NCBI RefSeq assembly: GCF_002020135.1
Contig: NZ_MPZS01000003.1
Location: 124,001-188,000 of the forward strand
Reading direction: 5' to 3'
Length of the DNA stretch: 64,000 bases
Origin: Thioclava marina
GTDB lineage: Bacteria; Pseudomonadota; Alphaproteobacteria; Rhodobacterales; Rhodobacteraceae
Each line of letters begins with the position of its first letter. Positions within the stretch are counted from its first letter, which is position 1. The notes beneath the pieces were generated by a model. That model ran no database searches. It was not told where the DNA came from and worked only from the letters and a program-made list of their open reading frames with translations. This document shows positions 13,143-23,194 of this stretch, piece by piece. The position numbers were made by a program, and so were the translations under genes.

Positions 13143-14383
13143 TGGACGGCGATATCCGCAACAATGTCTATGATGACGGCTCGCGCGATCAGCTGACCGA
13201 CGAGCAGCGTATCCGCAACTTCAACATCAACTTCGGTCCCCAGCACCCGGCCGCCCACGGCGTGCTGCGCATGGTTCTGGAACTTGACGGCGAGGTAGTG
13301 GAACGCGCCGACCCGCATATCGGCTTGCTGCACCGTGGCACCGAAAAGCTGATGGAGAGCCGCACCTACCTGCAGAACCTGCCTTATTTCGACCGCCTCG
13401 ATTACGTGGCGCCGATGAACCAGGAACATGCGTGGTGTCTCGCGATCGAGCGTCTGACCGGCACGGTCGTGCCGCGTCGCGGGCAACTGATCCGCGTGCT
13501 CTATTCGGAAATCGGGCGCATCCTGAACCACCTGCTGAACGTCACGACGCAGGCGATGGACGTGGGGGCGCTGACCCCGCCGCTCTGGGGCTTCGAGGCC
13601 CGCGAAGAGCTGATGGTGTTCTACGAGCGCGCCTGCGGTGCGCGCCTGCACTCGGCCTATTTCCGTCCCGGCGGCGTGCATCAGGACCTGCCGCCGAAAC
13701 TGCTCGACGATATCGAGGAGTTCTGCGGCCGCTTCCCGAAACTGCTCGACGATATCGAGGGGCTGCTGACCGAGAACCGGATCTTCAAGCAGCGCAACGT
13801 CGATATCTGCATCATCTCGGAAGAAGAGATCCAGCAATGGGGCTATTCGGGTGTGATGGTGCGTGGCTCGGGCCTCGCCTGGGACCTGCGGCGCGCGCAG
13901 CCCTACGAGTGCTATGACGAGTTCGACTTCCAGATCCCGATCGGTAAGAACGGCGATTGCTATGATCGCTACCTCTGCCGCATGGCCGAGATGCGCGAGT
14001 CGACCAAGATCGTCCTGCAATGCATCGAGAAACTGCGCATGCCCGAGAATCAGGGCGATGTGCTCGCGCGAGGCAAGCTGACCCCGCCGAAGCGCTCGGA
14101 CATGAAGACCTCGATGGAGAGCCTGATCCACCACTTCAAGCTCTATACCGAAGGTTTCCACGTCCCGGCAGGCGAGGTCTATGCCGCCGTCGAGGCGCCC
14201 AAGGGCGAATTCGGCGTCTATCTGGTCGCCGACGGCACCAACAAGCCCTACCGCGCGAAGATCCGTGCCCCGGGTTATCTGCACCTGCAATCCATGGACC
14301 ATGTCGCCAAGGGCCACATGCTCGCCGACGTGTCCGCAATCATCGGCACGATGGATATCGTGTTCGGGGAGGTTGACCGCTAA
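13139..14383 (+). CDS. nuoD: NADH-quinone oxidoreductase subunit D
   Basis: A 414-residue 49-kDa-type subunit that forms the quinone-binding cavity with NuoB. It begins with the conserved [14 protein letters not shown], contains LLHRGTEKL and MTQ-type helices, and ends in the canonical [10 protein letters not shown]. Residues ~185-207 hold two copies of KLLDDIE encoded by an identical 25-bp DNA repeat (13694-13718 and 13736-13760) 14 codons apart. Relatives have only a looser version of this symmetry, so it is probably local duplication or convergence and not damage. The start overlaps nuoC (ATGA) and the stop overlaps nuoE (TAATG). Confidence 0.95.
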
Positions 14384-15546
14384 TGCTTCGTCGTCTGCAT
14401 CCGGAACAACCCGCGAGCTTCGAATTCACGCCCGCGAACCTGGAATGGGCGAAAGCCCAGATGACCAAGTTCCCGGTCGGCCGTCAGGCCTCGGCGATCA
14501 TCCCGCTGCTGTTCCGCGCACAGGAGCAGGAAGGCTGGCTGAGCCGCCCGGCGATCGAATATGTCGCCGAAATGCTCGACATGCCCTATATGCGGGCGCT
14601 CGAAGTGGCGACCTTCTACTTCATGTTCCAGCTGAGCCCGGTGGGCTCGGTCGCGCATCTGCAGATCTGCGGCACGACCTCGTGCATGATCTGCGGCGCG
14701 GAAGACCTGATGAAGGTCTGCAAGGAAAAGATCGCACCCGAGCCGTTCCAGCTTTCGGCCGATGGCAAGTTCTCGTGGGAAGAGGTCGAATGCCTCGGCG
14801 CCTGCGCGAACGCGCCGATGATGCAGGTCGGCAAGGACTATTACGAGGACCTGACCGAGGAGAGCCTCGCGAAGATCATCGACGACATGGCCAAGGGCGA
14901 CGTGCCGAAACCCGGCTCGCAAACCGGTCGCTTCTCGTCGGAGCCCGCCTCCGGCCTGACCTCCTGCGCAGAAACCGCGGGCGAGAAGGAAGACTATAAC
15001 GGGTCTGTCGGCCTCGCGGTCGGCATCGGCGACACGATCAAGCGCATCGACGGCACCGAAGTGCCTCTGGCCGCCCCGTGGCAAAGCTCGGGCCAGCGCG
15101 GCCCGATCGGCACGATGGGGCAGGAGCGTCCGCGTTCGGCCGTCCAGCAGGACGAGGCCCGCAAGGCCGCGAACGCCGCAGCCCCGGCCGCTCCCGCGAA
15201 GGCACCGGAACCGGCGCCCGCCGCCAAGACCGGCGCGAGCGAGCCTGTCGAGGCCGGCGAGAAGCCCGCGATGCTCGAGGCGCCGCGCGACGGTCAGGCT
15301 GACGACCTCAAGATGATCAAGGGTGTCGGGCCGAAGCTCGAACAGCTCCTGCATTCGATGGGCGTCTACCATTTCGACCAGATCGCCGCCTGGAGCGAGG
15401 CCGAGCTGGCCTGGGTCGATGCCAATCTCGAAGGGTTCAAGGGCCGTGCCAGCCGCGACGAATGGGTCGCGCAGGCGCAAAACCTCGCGACCGGGGCGGA
15501 GACCGAGTTCTCGGCCCGCGCCAAGAAAGACGGTATTTACGAGTAA
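14383..15546 (+). CDS. nuoE: NADH-quinone oxidoreductase subunit E with C-terminal extension
   Basis: A 387-residue protein, far longer than a standard NuoE (~165-240). Residues 1-~180 are the 24-kDa thioredoxin-like subunit with the 2Fe-2S cluster N1a; its ligands are Cys96 and Cys101 (CGTTSC) and Cys137 and Cys141 (CLGAC). Residues ~180-255 form a less conserved link, ~260-300 are Ala/Pro-rich and probably disordered, and ~305-387 hold a helix-hairpin-helix-like domain ([17 protein letters not shown]). The same domain ends the next gene product at 15590-16411. Extended NuoE proteins are known in Rhodobacterales; what the tail does is unknown. Confidence 0.93.
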
Positions 15547-15567
15547 GCGAAGGGTGCCCCCCTTCGC
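15547..15567 (+). other. Hairpin in the nuoE to orf gap
   Basis: GCGAAGGG (15547-15554) and CCCTTCGC (15560-15567) can pair around a 5-nt loop directly after the nuoE stop. With no T-run it is not a terminator; it may modulate readthrough or mRNA stability inside the operon. Confidence 0.35.
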
Positions 15568-15589
15568 ATGGGGGTGAAGGAGAGCTAGG

Positions 15590-16411
15590 ATGGACGATCA
15601 GTCGCAAGGCTGCCGCGGAAAAGCAGGTATCTGGGCCGGGATCACGGGGCTCGTGGTTGCGGTGTTCCTCATGGTGGTGGCGCATGAGACGATCTTCGTC
15701 GCCGTTTTCATGGGGCTGCTGACCGTCCTTCTGTTCGGCGGGTTCCTGATCTGGGCCTTCTGCTCGGGCCGTGGTGCGCCGGGCGCGGCCGATGGCACGG
15801 GCGACACGCCCTCGCTCGAAGACACGACCCCGGTCGAGGCGTTCAGCGCGCAATCGCCCGAAGGGGCTGCGGCGCATGCTCAGGCGGCTGCCGCTATCCC
15901 GACGCCTGCGCCCGCACCTGCTCCCGAAGTGACGGCGACCGAGGTCGAGCCTCCCAAGGCCGAAGAGCCGACGCCTGAAGCGCCCGAGCCCGAAGAGACC
16001 AAAAGCGCCGAAGAGACGAAAAGCGCGGAACCGGAGGCCACTCCGGAAGCCTCGCCGCTGGCCGCGATGTCGGCGCAGGTCGATGCCGAGACCCAAGCGG
16101 GTCAGCCCGCCGCAGCCGAAGGCGCGGGTAAGAAGCCGCGCGGGCTGAAAGCGCCGCGCAAGGCGGGTGCGGATGACCTGAAGAAGATCGAAGGCGTCGG
16201 GCCGAAACTGGAAGAGACGCTGAACGGCTGGGGTATCTGGCATTACGACCAGATCGCGAAATGGGGTCCCGAAGAGGTGGCCTATGCCGACCAGAACGTG
16301 CCGCGTTTCAAGGGCCGCTGCACGCGCGACAAATGGGTCGCGCAGGCGAAAATCATCGTCGAAGAGGGCATGGACGCCTTCCTCGAACGGGCGAAGACGA
16401 ACGACTACTGA
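15590..16411 (+). CDS. Membrane protein with the same C-terminal domain as NuoE
   Basis: A 273-residue protein of unknown function inside the nuo operon. Residues ~12-57 contain two hydrophobic segments likely to cross the membrane. Residues ~60-185 are Ala/Pro/Glu-rich and probably disordered, with a short tandem (EETKSAEETKSAE). Residues ~192-273 form a helix-hairpin-helix-like domain (DDLKKIEGVGPKLEETLNGWG) that aligns without large gaps to the NuoE C terminus, including the ending FKGR..RD.WVAQA. AAGGAG precedes the ATG. The shared domain suggests that the protein associates with the same partner as the NuoE tail, possibly complex I or its assembly; this is inference. Confidence 0.85.
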   Translation: MDDQSQGCRGKAGIWAGITGLVVAVFLMVVAHETIFVAVFMGLLTVLLFGGFLIWAFCSGRGAPGAADGTGDTPSLEDTTPVEAFSAQSPEGAAAHAQAAAAIPTPAPAPAPEVTATEVEPPKAEEPTPEAPEPEETKSAEETKSAEPEATPEASPLAAMSAQVDAETQAGQPAAAEGAGKKPRGLKAPRKAGADDLKKIEGVGPKLEETLNGWGIWHYDQIAKWGPEEVAYADQNVPRFKGRCTRDKWVAQAKIIVEEGMDAFLERAKTNDY

Positions 16412-16421
16412 GCGGGGGTGA

Positions 16422-16637
16422 ATGAGCAAGGACCGGAACACGGACAGGCTGGACGGGCGCAAACCGGCGCTGATCATTGCCTTGACCACGGTCCTCTGGC
16501 TCGCCCTGCAATGGGTCGGAAAGCAACAGGGCTGGTCCGCGCAGGTGGCGCTGATCGGCGATCTCGCGGCACTGGCCGCCTATATCTACGCGCTGGCACT
16601 TGTCTGGCGCATCTGGCGCCGGGGCTCCGGCAAGTGA
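16422..16637 (+). CDS. Small two-helix membrane protein, DUF5337-like
   Basis: A 71-residue protein with a short charged N terminus and two hydrophobic helices (~16-31 and ~40-63), ending in a basic tail ([10 protein letters not shown]). Size, topology and place just before nuoF agree with the DUF5337 family of Rhodobacterales, a name I give from memory and not from a search. GGGGGTG lies before the ATG. No function is known; a role in complex I assembly or stability would fit the location. Confidence 0.7.
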
Positions 16638-16647
16638 GGGAAGCGAT

Positions 16648-17943
16648 ATGCTGAAGGATCAGGACCGGATCTTCACCAATATCTACGGCATGCATGACCG
16701 TTCGCTGAAGGGCGCGCAGATGCGCGGCCATTGGGACGGCACGGGCGAGATCCTGGCGAAGGGCAAGGACTGGATCATCGACCAGGTGAAGGCCTCGGGC
16801 CTGCGCGGTCGTGGCGGTGCGGGCTTCCCGACCGGCCTGAAATGGTCCTTCATGCCCAAGGAAAGCGACGGGCGTCCGGCTTTCCTCGCAATCAACGCCG
16901 ATGAATCCGAGCCCGCGACCTGCAAGGACCGCGAGATCATGCGCCACGATCCGCATACGCTGATCGAAGGCGCGCTGATCGCTGGCTTCGCGATGGGGGC
17001 TGCGGCGGCTTACATCTACATCCGCGGCGAATATGTGCGCGAGAAAGAGGCGCTCCAGCGCGCCATCGACGAGTGCTACGACGCGGGTCTGATCGGCAAG
17101 AACGCTTGCGGGTCGGGCTTTGACTACGACGTCTACCTTTCGCACGGCGCGGGCGCCTATATCTGCGGCGAGGAAACGGCGCTTCTGGAAAGCCTTGAAG
17201 GCAAGAAGGGCATGCCCCGGATGAAGCCTCCGTTCCCGGCGGGCGCGGGCCTCTACGGCTGCCCGACCACGGTGAACAACGTGGAATCCATCGCCGTCGT
17301 CCCGACCATCCTGCGTCGCGGCGCGGATTGGTATGCCTCCTTCGGGCGTCCGAACAATACCGGCGTGAAGCTTTTCGCGATGTCGGGCCATGTGAACACG
17401 CCCTGCGTCATCGAAGAGAGCATGTCGATCTCGATGAAGGAGCTGATCGAGAAACATGGCGGCGGCGTGCGCGGTGGCTGGAAGAACCTCAAGGCGGTGA
17501 TCCCCGGCGGCGCATCCTGCCCGGTCCTGCCCGCGCATCTGTGCGAAGACGCGATCATGGATTATGACGGCATGCGCGAGCTGAAGTCCTCCTTCGGCAC
17601 CGCCTGCATGATCGTGATGGATCAGCAGACCGACATCATCAAGGCGATCTGGCGTCTGGCCAAGTTCTTCAAGCATGAAAGCTGCGGCCAGTGCACGCCG
17701 TGCCGCGAAGGCACCGGCTGGATGATGCGCGTGATGGACCGTCTCGTGCGCGGCGAGGCCGAGATCGAAGAGATCGACATGCTCTTCGACGTGACCAAAC
17801 AGGTCGAAGGCCACACGATCTGCGCATTGGGTGACGCGGCCGCCTGGCCGATCCAAGGCCTGATCCGCCATTACCGCGAAGAGATCGAAGACCGCATCAA
17901 GGCCCGCAAGACGGGCCGCATGGGCGCGATGGCTGCCGAATGA
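16648..17943 (+). CDS. nuoF: NADH-quinone oxidoreductase subunit F (NADH/FMN site)
   Basis: A 431-residue 51-kDa-type subunit that oxidises NADH. The NADH/FMN-binding glycine-rich segment [16 protein letters not shown] is at 51-66, a second nucleotide-binding stretch [19 protein letters not shown] is at ~168-185, and the 4Fe-4S cluster N3 ligands are Cys346, Cys349, Cys352 (SCGQCTPC) and Cys392. The frame is open upstream to 16600, but the ATG at 16648 follows GAGGGAAG and matches relatives. The stop overlaps the DUF3291 gene as ATGA. Confidence 0.95.
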
Positions 17944-18440
17944 AGCAACCTGCCGGATATCACCTGGCCGAGCTGAATATCGGCCGACTGGTTGCCGAAC
18001 CGGGCGACCCGCGTGTGGAGGCTTTCATGAAGGCCCTCGACGCGGTGAACGCGATTGGCAAGCGGTCGGACGGGTTCGTCTGGATGATGGAGGGCTCGGG
18101 TGAGCCCGGCACCGGCAATACCGAGACCAAGATCGGCGGCGATCCGTGTTTCGTGTCGAACCTGACGGTCTGGGAAGACGTGGAAAGCCTCGAGAAATTC
18201 GTCTGGAACACCGTGCACCGCGCCTTCTACGAGCGCCGCGCGGAATGGTTCGAGGTCTTGGGCGAACAGCATTTCGTCATGTGGTGGGTGCCCGCGGGCC
18301 ATCGACCCACCCTCGACGAGGCGCTGGAGCGGCTCGAGGACCTGCGCGCGAATGGCTCATCCGACCGTGCTTTCGGCTGGAAGGACCTGCCGCAAGCCAC
18401 GCTGTGGAAGACGCGCGCCTGCGCGGCGGAGGCGGCATGA
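17940..18440 (+). CDS. DUF3291 family protein
   Basis: A 166-residue soluble protein with the family's features: [19 protein letters not shown] at the N terminus, DGFVWMMEG, a central [15 protein letters not shown], and the conserved [20 protein letters not shown] near the C terminus. The fold is expected to be a dimeric alpha/beta barrel related to monooxygenase-like ferredoxin folds; no reaction is established. It starts inside the nuoF stop and its own stop overlaps the following lipoprotein gene, so it is co-translated with complex I genes. A link to quinone or radical chemistry would be speculation. Confidence 0.85.
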
Positions 18441-18742
18441 TGCGCGCGGTGATCATATCGGGCTGCGCGCTCTCGCTGGCGGGCTGCATGGCGATGCCTG
18501 GCGATAACGAGGCCTCGAAAGGTCCGAACCGTCTGGCGGCGGTCGAGGGCTACACGGCGGGCTATGACGCGGAGGGCGCGCTCGTCGTGATGCGGCAGGC
18601 CACGCCGTTCGCGAATTACGACGGCGCCGAGGCGAAGCGCGCCGCGAATGCAATCTGCGGCGGGGCGGTGGCCTCGTCGATCGACGATACCTATCGGGAT
18701 GGCGCTTGGGTCTTCCCGAATGGCTGTGCACGCGCGGCCTGA
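18437..18742 (+). CDS. Small lipoprotein in the nuo operon
   Basis: A 101-residue protein with a lipoprotein signal peptide: a short hydrophobic core ends in the lipobox LAGC with Cys17 as the lipidation site. The mature part is short and has two further cysteines near its end (ICGG and NGC) that could form a disulphide. I do not recognise the family. ATG at 18437 overlaps the DUF3291 stop (ATGA); a second ATG follows immediately. Its location outside the cytoplasm contrasts with the neighbouring complex I arm subunits. Confidence 0.7.
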   Translation: MMRAVIISGCALSLAGCMAMPGDNEASKGPNRLAAVEGYTAGYDAEGALVVMRQATPFANYDGAEAKRAANAICGGAVASSIDDTYRDGAWVFPNGCARAA

Positions 18743-20822: not shown

Positions 20823-21239
20823 ATGAACCTGAGCCTCACCCGGATCGCACCGCTTGCCCCCGGCCTTCTGGCCGGGCTGGCGGCCTGCGCGCCGAGCGAG
20901 GGGAAGGACAGCCGGGCCGAGCCCGGCAAGATCGACTATCGGGGCGTCGAGACGCGCCTTCTCGATGGCGATCTGGTGGAGTTTCGCGTCGCGCTTTCGG
21001 GCGAGGGCGCGGGGGAAGACGCGGTGAGCGATTACGCACAATGCGCGGCAGCGCAATATGCGCTGATCCGCGGTTACGGCTTCGCGCGCCACGTGCGCAC
21101 GAACGTCAAGGAAGAGGGTGGCATCTGGCGGGCGGATGCGGTCTACACCATTTCGCCCGCCCTGCCGCAAGGGCTGAAGACGATCGACGCTGAAGTGACG
21201 GTCGGCGACTGCGCGGATCGGGGAATTCCGACGGTTTGA
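20823..21239 (+). CDS. Lipoprotein of unknown function between nuoG and nuoH
   Basis: A 138-residue protein with a hydrophobic N terminus ending in a lipobox-like LAAC (Cys22), so probably a lipid-anchored periplasmic protein. The mature part is predicted to be a small alpha/beta domain with cysteines in YAQCAAAQYA and VGDCADRG that could pair. I do not recognise a family. It lies 6 bp after nuoG and 15 bp before nuoH. It does not resemble the 18437 lipoprotein, so the operon encodes two distinct lipoproteins. Confidence 0.75.
   Translation: MNLSLTRIAPLAPGLLAGLAACAPSEGKDSRAEPGKIDYRGVETRLLDGDLVEFRVALSGEGAGEDAVSDYAQCAAAQYALIRGYGFARHVRTNVKEEGGIWRADAVYTISPALPQGLKTIDAEVTVGDCADRGIPTV

Positions 21240-22295: not shown

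Positions 22296-23190
<895 letters not shown>

Positions 23191-23194
<4 letters not shown>

Follow-up and report, generated by a model that had tools for sequence, protein, structure and literature searches.

Two tailed proteins in the nuo operon of Thioclava marina

This report concerns two adjacent genes in the operon for respiratory complex I (nuo) of Thioclava marina (Rhodobacteraceae) and the homologous C-terminal tails of the proteins that they encode. The window, meaning the whole stretch of DNA that was analysed, is 64,000 nucleotides long (positions 124,001 to 188,000 of contig NZ_MPZS01000003.1, assembly GCF_002020135.1), and the two genes with their parts, the inverted repeat and the DUF5337 ORF described below lie on its + strand. 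Within the nuo operon the order is nuoE, a 43-base gap, an open reading frame (ORF) for 273 amino acids, a DUF5337 ORF, and nuoF.

The first gene, nuoE (14383-15546), encodes a complex I subunit of the 24-kDa type with a C-terminal extension, 387 amino acids in all. Its thioredoxin-like [2Fe-2S] core (residues 24-169; 14452-14889) was recognized by PF01257 (E=4.7e-52), and residues 1-384, tail included, matched the NuoE family NF009040 at 572.8 bits against a cut-off of 514. Further on come a linker (residues 237-306; 15091-15300) with 27% Ala, 14% Pro and no net charge, and a helix-hairpin-helix (HhH)-like tail domain (residues 307-387; 15301-15543), recognized by BLASTP against the neighbour and by profile matches of the domain alone. 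The neighbouring ORF (15590-16411) encodes a protein resembling protein-O, a chain of a photosynthetic complex that is introduced below, and it was recognized by its matches to the PDB chains 8yy9_O and 9wqv_a. It consists of a membrane hairpin (15599-15763), whose helices at residues 4-31 and 35-58 and whose Cys8 and Cys58 were assigned from hydropathy, a structural model and aligned cysteine columns; a linker (residues 64-193; 15779-16168) with 25% Ala, 16% Pro and a net charge of -14, delimited by composition and by model confidence (pLDDT); and an HhH-like tail domain (residues 194-273; 16169-16408) with a GVG hairpin at residues 202-204.

The C-terminal parts of the two proteins are 44% identical over 134 amino acids (BLASTP, E=2e-29). 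The linker-free domain of the neighbour (66 amino acids) also retrieves the NuoE tail from its own genome, at 57% identity over 61 amino acids (E=5.2e-21); chance and the common Ala/Pro composition are therefore rejected as the source of the likeness. The sequence-only reading from which this analysis started had claimed that the two C termini are homologous, had placed them correctly, and had described a long Ala/Pro-rich linker ahead of each, with one copy on the NADH-oxidizing arm and the other on a membrane anchor. All of this is borne out, the linkers as cut being 70 and 130 amino acids long with 41% Ala plus Pro in each.

The tail domain and its predicted structure

For comparison, the stretch upstream of nuoF was fetched for 150 of the 159 genera of the family. 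The nine genera left out, six of them phototrophs, comprise two without a NuoF match at 1e-150 and seven whose match ranked below those listed, and six of the fetched stretches end at contig ends. Proteins other than NuoE that carry the domain are called anchored by hydropathy, and five of the 94 first non-NuoE HhH proteins lack two helices at a second threshold. In L245, one of the stretches cut at a contig end, the leading HhH piece probably belongs to the C terminus of NuoE, and it was handled as the first non-NuoE tail. An earlier sample of 80 loci, the best 80 of 98, had been found with anchored-protein patterns, so that its architecture counts (anchored gene in 35 of 80) and its alignment A1 are biased; each tail in it was typed according to which of the two window tails gave the better BLAST match.

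The Pfam family HHH_5 scored 20.3 and 16.8 bits on the window domains, below its gathering cut-off of 27, and a related tail, that of ribosomal protein L21 of the host, passed it at 28.5 bits. The label HhH-like, given from sequence alone, is thus supported, although the domain is somewhat remote from the Pfam families as curated. Of 124 NuoE tails, 120 have a hairpin pattern of the GhG type, as do all 94 first non-NuoE tails. A model of the isolated domain (77 amino acids) reached a pLDDT of 78 and a pTM of 0.60. Its structural neighbours are the HhH-type domains of RadA, NusA, Hel308, DNA polymerase iota, DinB and MutY, those of polymerase iota, DinB and MutY being DNA-bound. All of these matches are modest (best Foldseek E 1.3), and the VIA Z scores of 7.9 for RadA, 7.0 for NusA and about 5 for polymerase iota lie below 8, where a match may reflect merely a common arrangement. 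For the full-length neighbour, a two-helix hairpin and a disordered linker are predicted: the blocks over residues 11-60 have pLDDT values of 73-82, most of residues 61-178 fall below 50, and a helical domain begins at about residue 205.

A counterpart of protein-O outside the phototrophs

The best matches of the neighbour in the Protein Data Bank (PDB) are 8yy9_O ("Reaction center protein O chain", 1.2e-25) and 9wqv_a ("41 kd complex I subunit", 1.1e-24), and its tail domain alone matches 8yy9_O at 4.3e-23. Because 9wqv also includes a reaction-centre M chain, both entries were taken as structures of the complex of reaction centre and light-harvesting antenna 1 (RC-LH1). According to the available text of PMC12079452, protein-O of Dinoroseobacter shibae RC-LH1 has 239 residues, of which Met8-Cys59 alone are visible. 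A Cys10-Cys59 disulphide lies on the cytoplasmic side, the hairpin sits between RC and LH1, the gene lies between nuoE and nuoF, and no function is assigned. The same text reports a similarity of the C-terminal part to NuoE; the tail homology itself is therefore already published. The genome G043 encodes a protein of 239 amino acids that contains both of the compared stretches of 8yy9_O, and is thus D. shibae or nearly so.

Several observations connect the hairpins as well. The protein-O-like gene lies between nuoE and nuoF in the window and in L243, which carries the D. shibae-type protein, and Cys8 and Cys58 of the window align with the cysteine pair of that protein in an alignment whose rows were all picked for having such a pair. 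A hairpin profile built from 14 non-phototroph rows, the window included, finds the L243 hairpin at 3.3e-11 among 9468 ORFs of the stretches; at E<0.01 it recognizes 80 of 108 non-NuoE HhH proteins. A direct pairwise comparison of the window hairpin with that of protein-O gave no significant match.

It is also necessary to ask whether the host has a photosystem at all. Photo_RC (PF00124) found no match in any of 16 genomes of the host genus, the host included (estimated completeness 100%; its NuoF is 100% identical to that of T. pacifica), and the same search was positive in 63 of the 159 genera of the family. Because neither the host nor its 15 congeners have a Photo_RC match, the neighbour is, as judged from its sequence, a counterpart of protein-O and not a subunit of RC-LH1. 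The tail domain itself has a match in at least 146 of the 159 genera, and a membrane-anchored HhH gene lies upstream of nuoF in 94 of the 150 genera, among them 51 of the 93 non-phototrophs. A protein-O-like gene cannot then be specific to RC-LH1, and its job must be more general.

One could still hold that the neighbour is an RC-LH1 subunit or assembly factor, as named in D. shibae, and that its place in the operon is incidental. Homologues are indeed present in 8yy9, in three further entries of the same chain and in 9wqv, the hairpin was located between RC and LH1 (PMC12079452, as far as its available text goes), and the anchored gene is commoner in phototrophs, at 43 of 57 genera (uncorrected p=0.015). 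With ancestry counted, however, this association comes down to five supported pairs, too few to decide, and the cysteine pair is kept in 35 of the 51 anchored proteins of non-phototrophs against 23 of the 43 of phototrophs. Moreover, the gene is intact in a host without a Photo_RC match, so that an RC-LH1-specific role is rejected and an obligate one already refuted for this host, if the genome is complete. We regard this explanation as very improbable. In other words, a recently named photosystem subunit is a protein of the complex I operon in many bacteria without a detected photosystem, which shifts where its function should be sought.

Pairing, copying and separate descent of the tails

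The sequence-only reading had offered two possibilities, that the tails could dimerize or that they could bind a common partner. Where the stretch includes nuoE (149 genera), both tails occur in 82 genera, the NuoE tail by itself in 42, the anchored tail by itself in 11, and no tail in 14. The two tails are associated at an uncorrected p of 0.044; with ancestry counted, the supported pairs number 8 and 6, not enough for a decision. Since each tail occurs without the other, an obligate pair of NuoE and anchor is not supported, and a shared partner is favoured.

In some genomes the tails have been copied between the two genes. Across the 82 genomes with both, tails of the same genome are 69% identical, compared with 65% between genomes, and none of 2000 permutations reached so high a value; the identities between genomes are 66% both for NuoE with NuoE and for anchor with anchor. 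The clearest case is L208, whose two tails share 98.5% of their nucleotides, with third positions included; of the other six genomes compared in this way, L183 comes nearest at 91%. In a tree of the domain, which is weakly resolved at 65 residues, the own two tails of four genomes are sisters, the L208 pair having a branch support of 0.

Some separate descent remains as well, because the gene label changes 53 times on the domain tree, fewer than in any of 200 shuffles (59-83, mean 70). Of 83 anchored tails, profiles of tail type, trained on the same sequences that they classify, called 54 anchor-like and not one NuoE-like; of the 82 NuoE tails with a partner they left 61 unassigned. A descent of the tails in two old and distinct lineages was considered as well, and in the set of 150 genera the two types separate only partly. 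Thirteen stretches hold a hairpin that lacks a tail (profile E below 1e-4), 11 of them beside a tailed NuoE. Together, the copying, the single occurrences and the tail-less hairpins suggest that the tails perform one task from different mounts.

Another explanation is that the tail might be a mobile, nearly neutral domain that spreads between adjacent genes by recombination and has no selected function in complex I. The copying seen in L208 would be expected on that account, as would the frequent turnover on a tree of 147 genera (the anchored gene changes 38 times and the NuoE tail 21 times) and the 14 genera in which the stretch holds neither tail. Against it, 28 positions of the domain of about 65 residues are more than 90% conserved (164 tails, 82 genera), and at least one copy is kept in the stretch in 135 of 149 genera. 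These two observations make a neutral domain, in our opinion, improbable.

A second shared module was observed in relatives, namely a motif of about 25 residues, [VI]KPSxxL[AP]GQxELAxRKGxWxY, which occurs in L158, L190, L147, L229, L243 and others and not in the window. A pattern fitted to it, KG[DTSEHNA]WxY, is present in 28 of the 94 first non-NuoE HhH proteins (1-3 copies), in 7 of 149 NuoE proteins, and in 6 of the 13 tail-less hairpins. Of the 9212 remaining ORFs in the stretches only one has it, and that one (L179) is also a hairpin protein. When 20 genomes were searched, one of 27 strong matches (E at most 4.5e-11) stood at the N-terminus of an apparent ABC-transporter ATPase of the D. 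shibae-type genome (L335, G043:C1:1424294-1424368); the other 26 lie within the nuoE-nuoF stretch.

A wider family of tailed proteins

The same domain ends the ribosomal protein L21 of the host. Used alone as a query, the NuoE domain matched the profiles NF009040 (3.4e-35), L21 (4.1e-20), PhaH (2.3e-18) and S2 (1.6e-13), and the domain of the neighbour matched L21 (2.8e-17), PhaH (1.5e-16) and S2 (8.9e-15), in each case over the tails of these families. In a sample of the class, 12 of 115 genomes, including the host and one member of its family, had strong matches to the domain. The carriers in that sample, as judged by eye, are NuoE, L21, S2 and membrane-anchored proteins, and the last three recur in other alphaproteobacterial families. 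PhaH proper scored over its cut-off in none of the 115 class genomes, and the Caulobacter control was positive.

As a review (PMC13052382) puts it in the part available, PhaH of Caulobacter positions storage granules of polyhydroxybutyrate (PHB) along the nucleoid, and its C-terminal HhH end binds DNA nonspecifically. A common partner for the tails is favoured both by the copying between the genes and by the finding of one domain family on L21, S2 and PhaH, and nucleic acid is a plausible partner in view of the homology to PhaH and of what the review says of it.

Other tailed proteins were noticed along the way. L298 is a predicted membrane protein from another alphaproteobacterial family with two HhH tail domains in tandem, and L121, L122 and L123 are HhH-tailed proteins encoded elsewhere in Rhodobacteraceae, with one membrane helix and a linker that looks like a coiled coil by eye. 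Eleven of the 150 stretches (L188, L196, L209, L211, L217, L235, L239, L250, L257, L263 and L268) hold a further HhH-tailed ORF, located after the anchored gene and before nuoF. Some of these third proteins have N-termini that look phasin-like by eye; three of them were run against Pfam and NCBIfam, neither of which recognized a phasin part, and the idea that they are phasins was dropped.

What the tails may do

The relation of the two proteins to complex I has to be considered before any mechanism. The structure of Paracoccus complex I, as given in the available text of PMC11522691, has a NuoE of 239 amino acids without a tail, and its extra subunits are of four other kinds, namely NDUFS4, NDUFS6, NDUFA12 and a PIMT. 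The anchored protein is not among the subunits named there. This composition suggests that the NuoE tail is dispensable for catalysis. It also speaks against the possibility that both proteins are structural parts of complex I, the hairpin on the membrane arm and the NuoE tail stabilizing the N-module. An anchored HhH gene separates nuoE from nuoF in 94 of the 150 genera, which would suit such a role, as would the reciprocal arrangements of hairpin and tail; set against these, apart from a Paracoccus complex with neither part, are linkers predicted to be disordered and a hairpin found in RC-LH1. We think a structural role distinctly improbable. From the gene order only, complex I is nevertheless the likely partner of the hairpin in a non-phototroph.

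The interpretation that we tentatively favour, at somewhat less than an even chance, is that NuoE and its neighbour are two carriers of one flexible tethering tail, whose HhH end would most likely bind nucleic acid nonspecifically, above all the DNA of the nucleoid. This nucleic-acid leash is proposed because of the homology to PhaH, the retained GhG hairpin, the fold and the copying of the tails. NuoE would display its tail on the cytoplasmic NADH arm of complex I, and the neighbour would hold out its own from the inner membrane, on a hairpin of two helices with a cysteine pair that lies against energy complexes of the membrane. Such packing is seen with RC-LH1 in phototrophs, and here the complex would most likely be complex I or another respiratory complex; the topology assumed for the host follows that of D. 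shibae by analogy. With linkers of 70-130 residues the HhH domain could extend into the cytoplasm and there bind nucleic acid, as reported for the domain of PhaH. If the tails do bind nucleic acid, a respiratory complex and a membrane anchor would be physically linked to the chromosome or to ribosomes. Of the original interpretation, then, the homologous HhH-like domain, the linkers, the two mounts and a plausible nucleic-acid partner stand, and the obligate pair of tails does not.

A number of observations weigh against a nucleic-acid leash. The domain is mildly acidic, with a mean net charge of -2.2 over 124 NuoE tails and -1.3 over 94 anchored tails. Basic linkers, which might have been a sign of DNA binding, were looked for in these tails and not found: the 60 residues ahead of the domain have mean charges of +1.4 (NuoE) and -0.6 (anchored), and the whole linkers of the window have 0 and -14. 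The Z scores of the fold matches are modest, and one of these matches (Z 7.0) is to the C-terminal domain of NusA, which binds a protein partner. The same-genome effect that speaks for copying is small, the own partner being the best match of the NuoE tail in only 13 of the 82 genomes and exceeding the mean of five near genomes in 50 of 82. With 14 of 149 genera having neither tail and a tail-less Paracoccus complex I, the tail is accessory, and none of the structures examined, among which there was no complex I of a species that has the gene, places the anchored protein in complex I. The DNA binding stated for PhaH comes from a review and applies to PhaH alone, so that its extension to the window tails is an analogy, and in the available part of that review (PMC13052382) the proteins PhaM and PhaF are described as having DNA-binding domains of another, histone-like kind. 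In the literature searched, no study of the function of the NuoE tail appeared among the matches listed, judged by titles and the beginnings of abstracts.

Some of the same observations would suit a tail that docks to protein, in which a single protein hub is bound by the HhH tails of NuoE, the anchored proteins and L21, or these tails bind one another; ribosomes or an assembly factor might, for example, be docked in this way at the membrane beside complex I. The acidity and the resemblance to NusA fit this, and so do the presence of the tail on L21 and S2 and on many membrane-anchored proteins (by eye), the copying, which would fit a single shared partner, and the second linker motif common to NuoE and anchored proteins in relatives. 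It is opposed by the DNA binding reported for the HhH region of PhaH (PMC13052382, available part) together with the retained GhG hairpin; docking of the two tails to each other is further opposed by the 42 and 11 genera that have only one of them. We consider protein docking possible, if somewhat unlikely.

Beyond the published similarity of protein-O to NuoE, three points were not found in the literature consulted: how the gene is distributed outside the phototrophs, that the tails are copied and can occur separately, and that they are related to the tails of L21, S2 and PhaH. These make a shared scaffold our leading idea. Stated at its broadest, and as a speculation that we judge unlikely in this full form, a single interchangeable HhH leash of the Alphaproteobacteria would tie ribosomes (L21 and S2), granules (PhaH), complex I (NuoE) and hairpins (protein-O) to the nucleoid or to another common scaffold, positioning respiratory complexes relative to the chromosome, and RC-LH1 would be a later client of the hairpin from the complex I operon.

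Other features of the operon

Between the protein-O-like gene and nuoF lies a small membrane protein of 71 amino acids with a DUF5337 domain (16422-16637; PF17272, E=2.6e-20), and ORFs of this type, identified by eye with one scored, occupy the same gap in many relatives. Directly 3' of the nuoE stop codon, and upstream of the ribosome-binding site of the neighbour, is a perfect GC-rich inverted repeat of 8 bp with a 5-base loop (15547-15567). It is not clearly more stable than shuffled sequences (z -0.99; 35 of 200 shuffles equally stable) and no terminator-like site was called there on the + strand; its role as an attenuator is rejected because its stability is no better than that of the shuffles. 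Four further non-core ORFs are found within the operon (17940-18440, 18437-18742, 20823-21239 and 22784-23194); they are a DUF3291 gene, two short ORFs that look lipoprotein-like by eye and have no Pfam family over its cut-off, and a gene of the carboxymuconolactone decarboxylase family.

Comparison with known systems

Among NuoE proteins with a C-terminal extension (NF009040, PRK12373), that of the window is an ordinary member with no notable difference. The ribosomal proteins L21 and S2 with an HhH tail (NF008915, NF008916 and NF008966) have the same tail domain, the carrier there being the ribosome. PhaH of Caulobacter (NF045508) also has a homologous C-terminal HhH domain after a linker and ties a cell structure to something else; the window proteins lack its phasin part, scoring 71.2 and 74.1 bits against a cut-off of 250 with only tail and linker matched.

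As for the hairpin, Protein-U of the Rhodobacter sphaeroides RC-LH1 resembles protein-O in architecture and position, whereas its sequence is described as quite distinct and no HhH tail is mentioned in the available text of PMC12079452. A PDB search with the tail-less hairpin of a relative returned nothing significant. Of the structures that include a reaction-centre M chain, 9wqv has a chain a that matches the tail of the neighbour at 2.9e-22 and its hairpin weakly (0.033), and 9lts has a chain A ("Protein LRC") that matches the hairpin profile at 4.4e-16, the stretch printed for it differing little from the D. shibae sequence, which was itself among the rows of the profile.

The closest comparison is with protein-O itself (8yy9, 8yz2, 9jpb and 9km0; PMC12079452, available text). 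The Thioclava host shows no reaction centre, the sequence outside the tail has diverged, and a search of the host genome did not recover the D. shibae linker motif (…LAGEAELAGRKGSWSY; best E 0.7). Protein-O and the neighbour are of similar length (239 and 273 amino acids), and they share the gene position, a two-helix hairpin with a cysteine pair, a long flexible linker and a homologous C-terminal domain.

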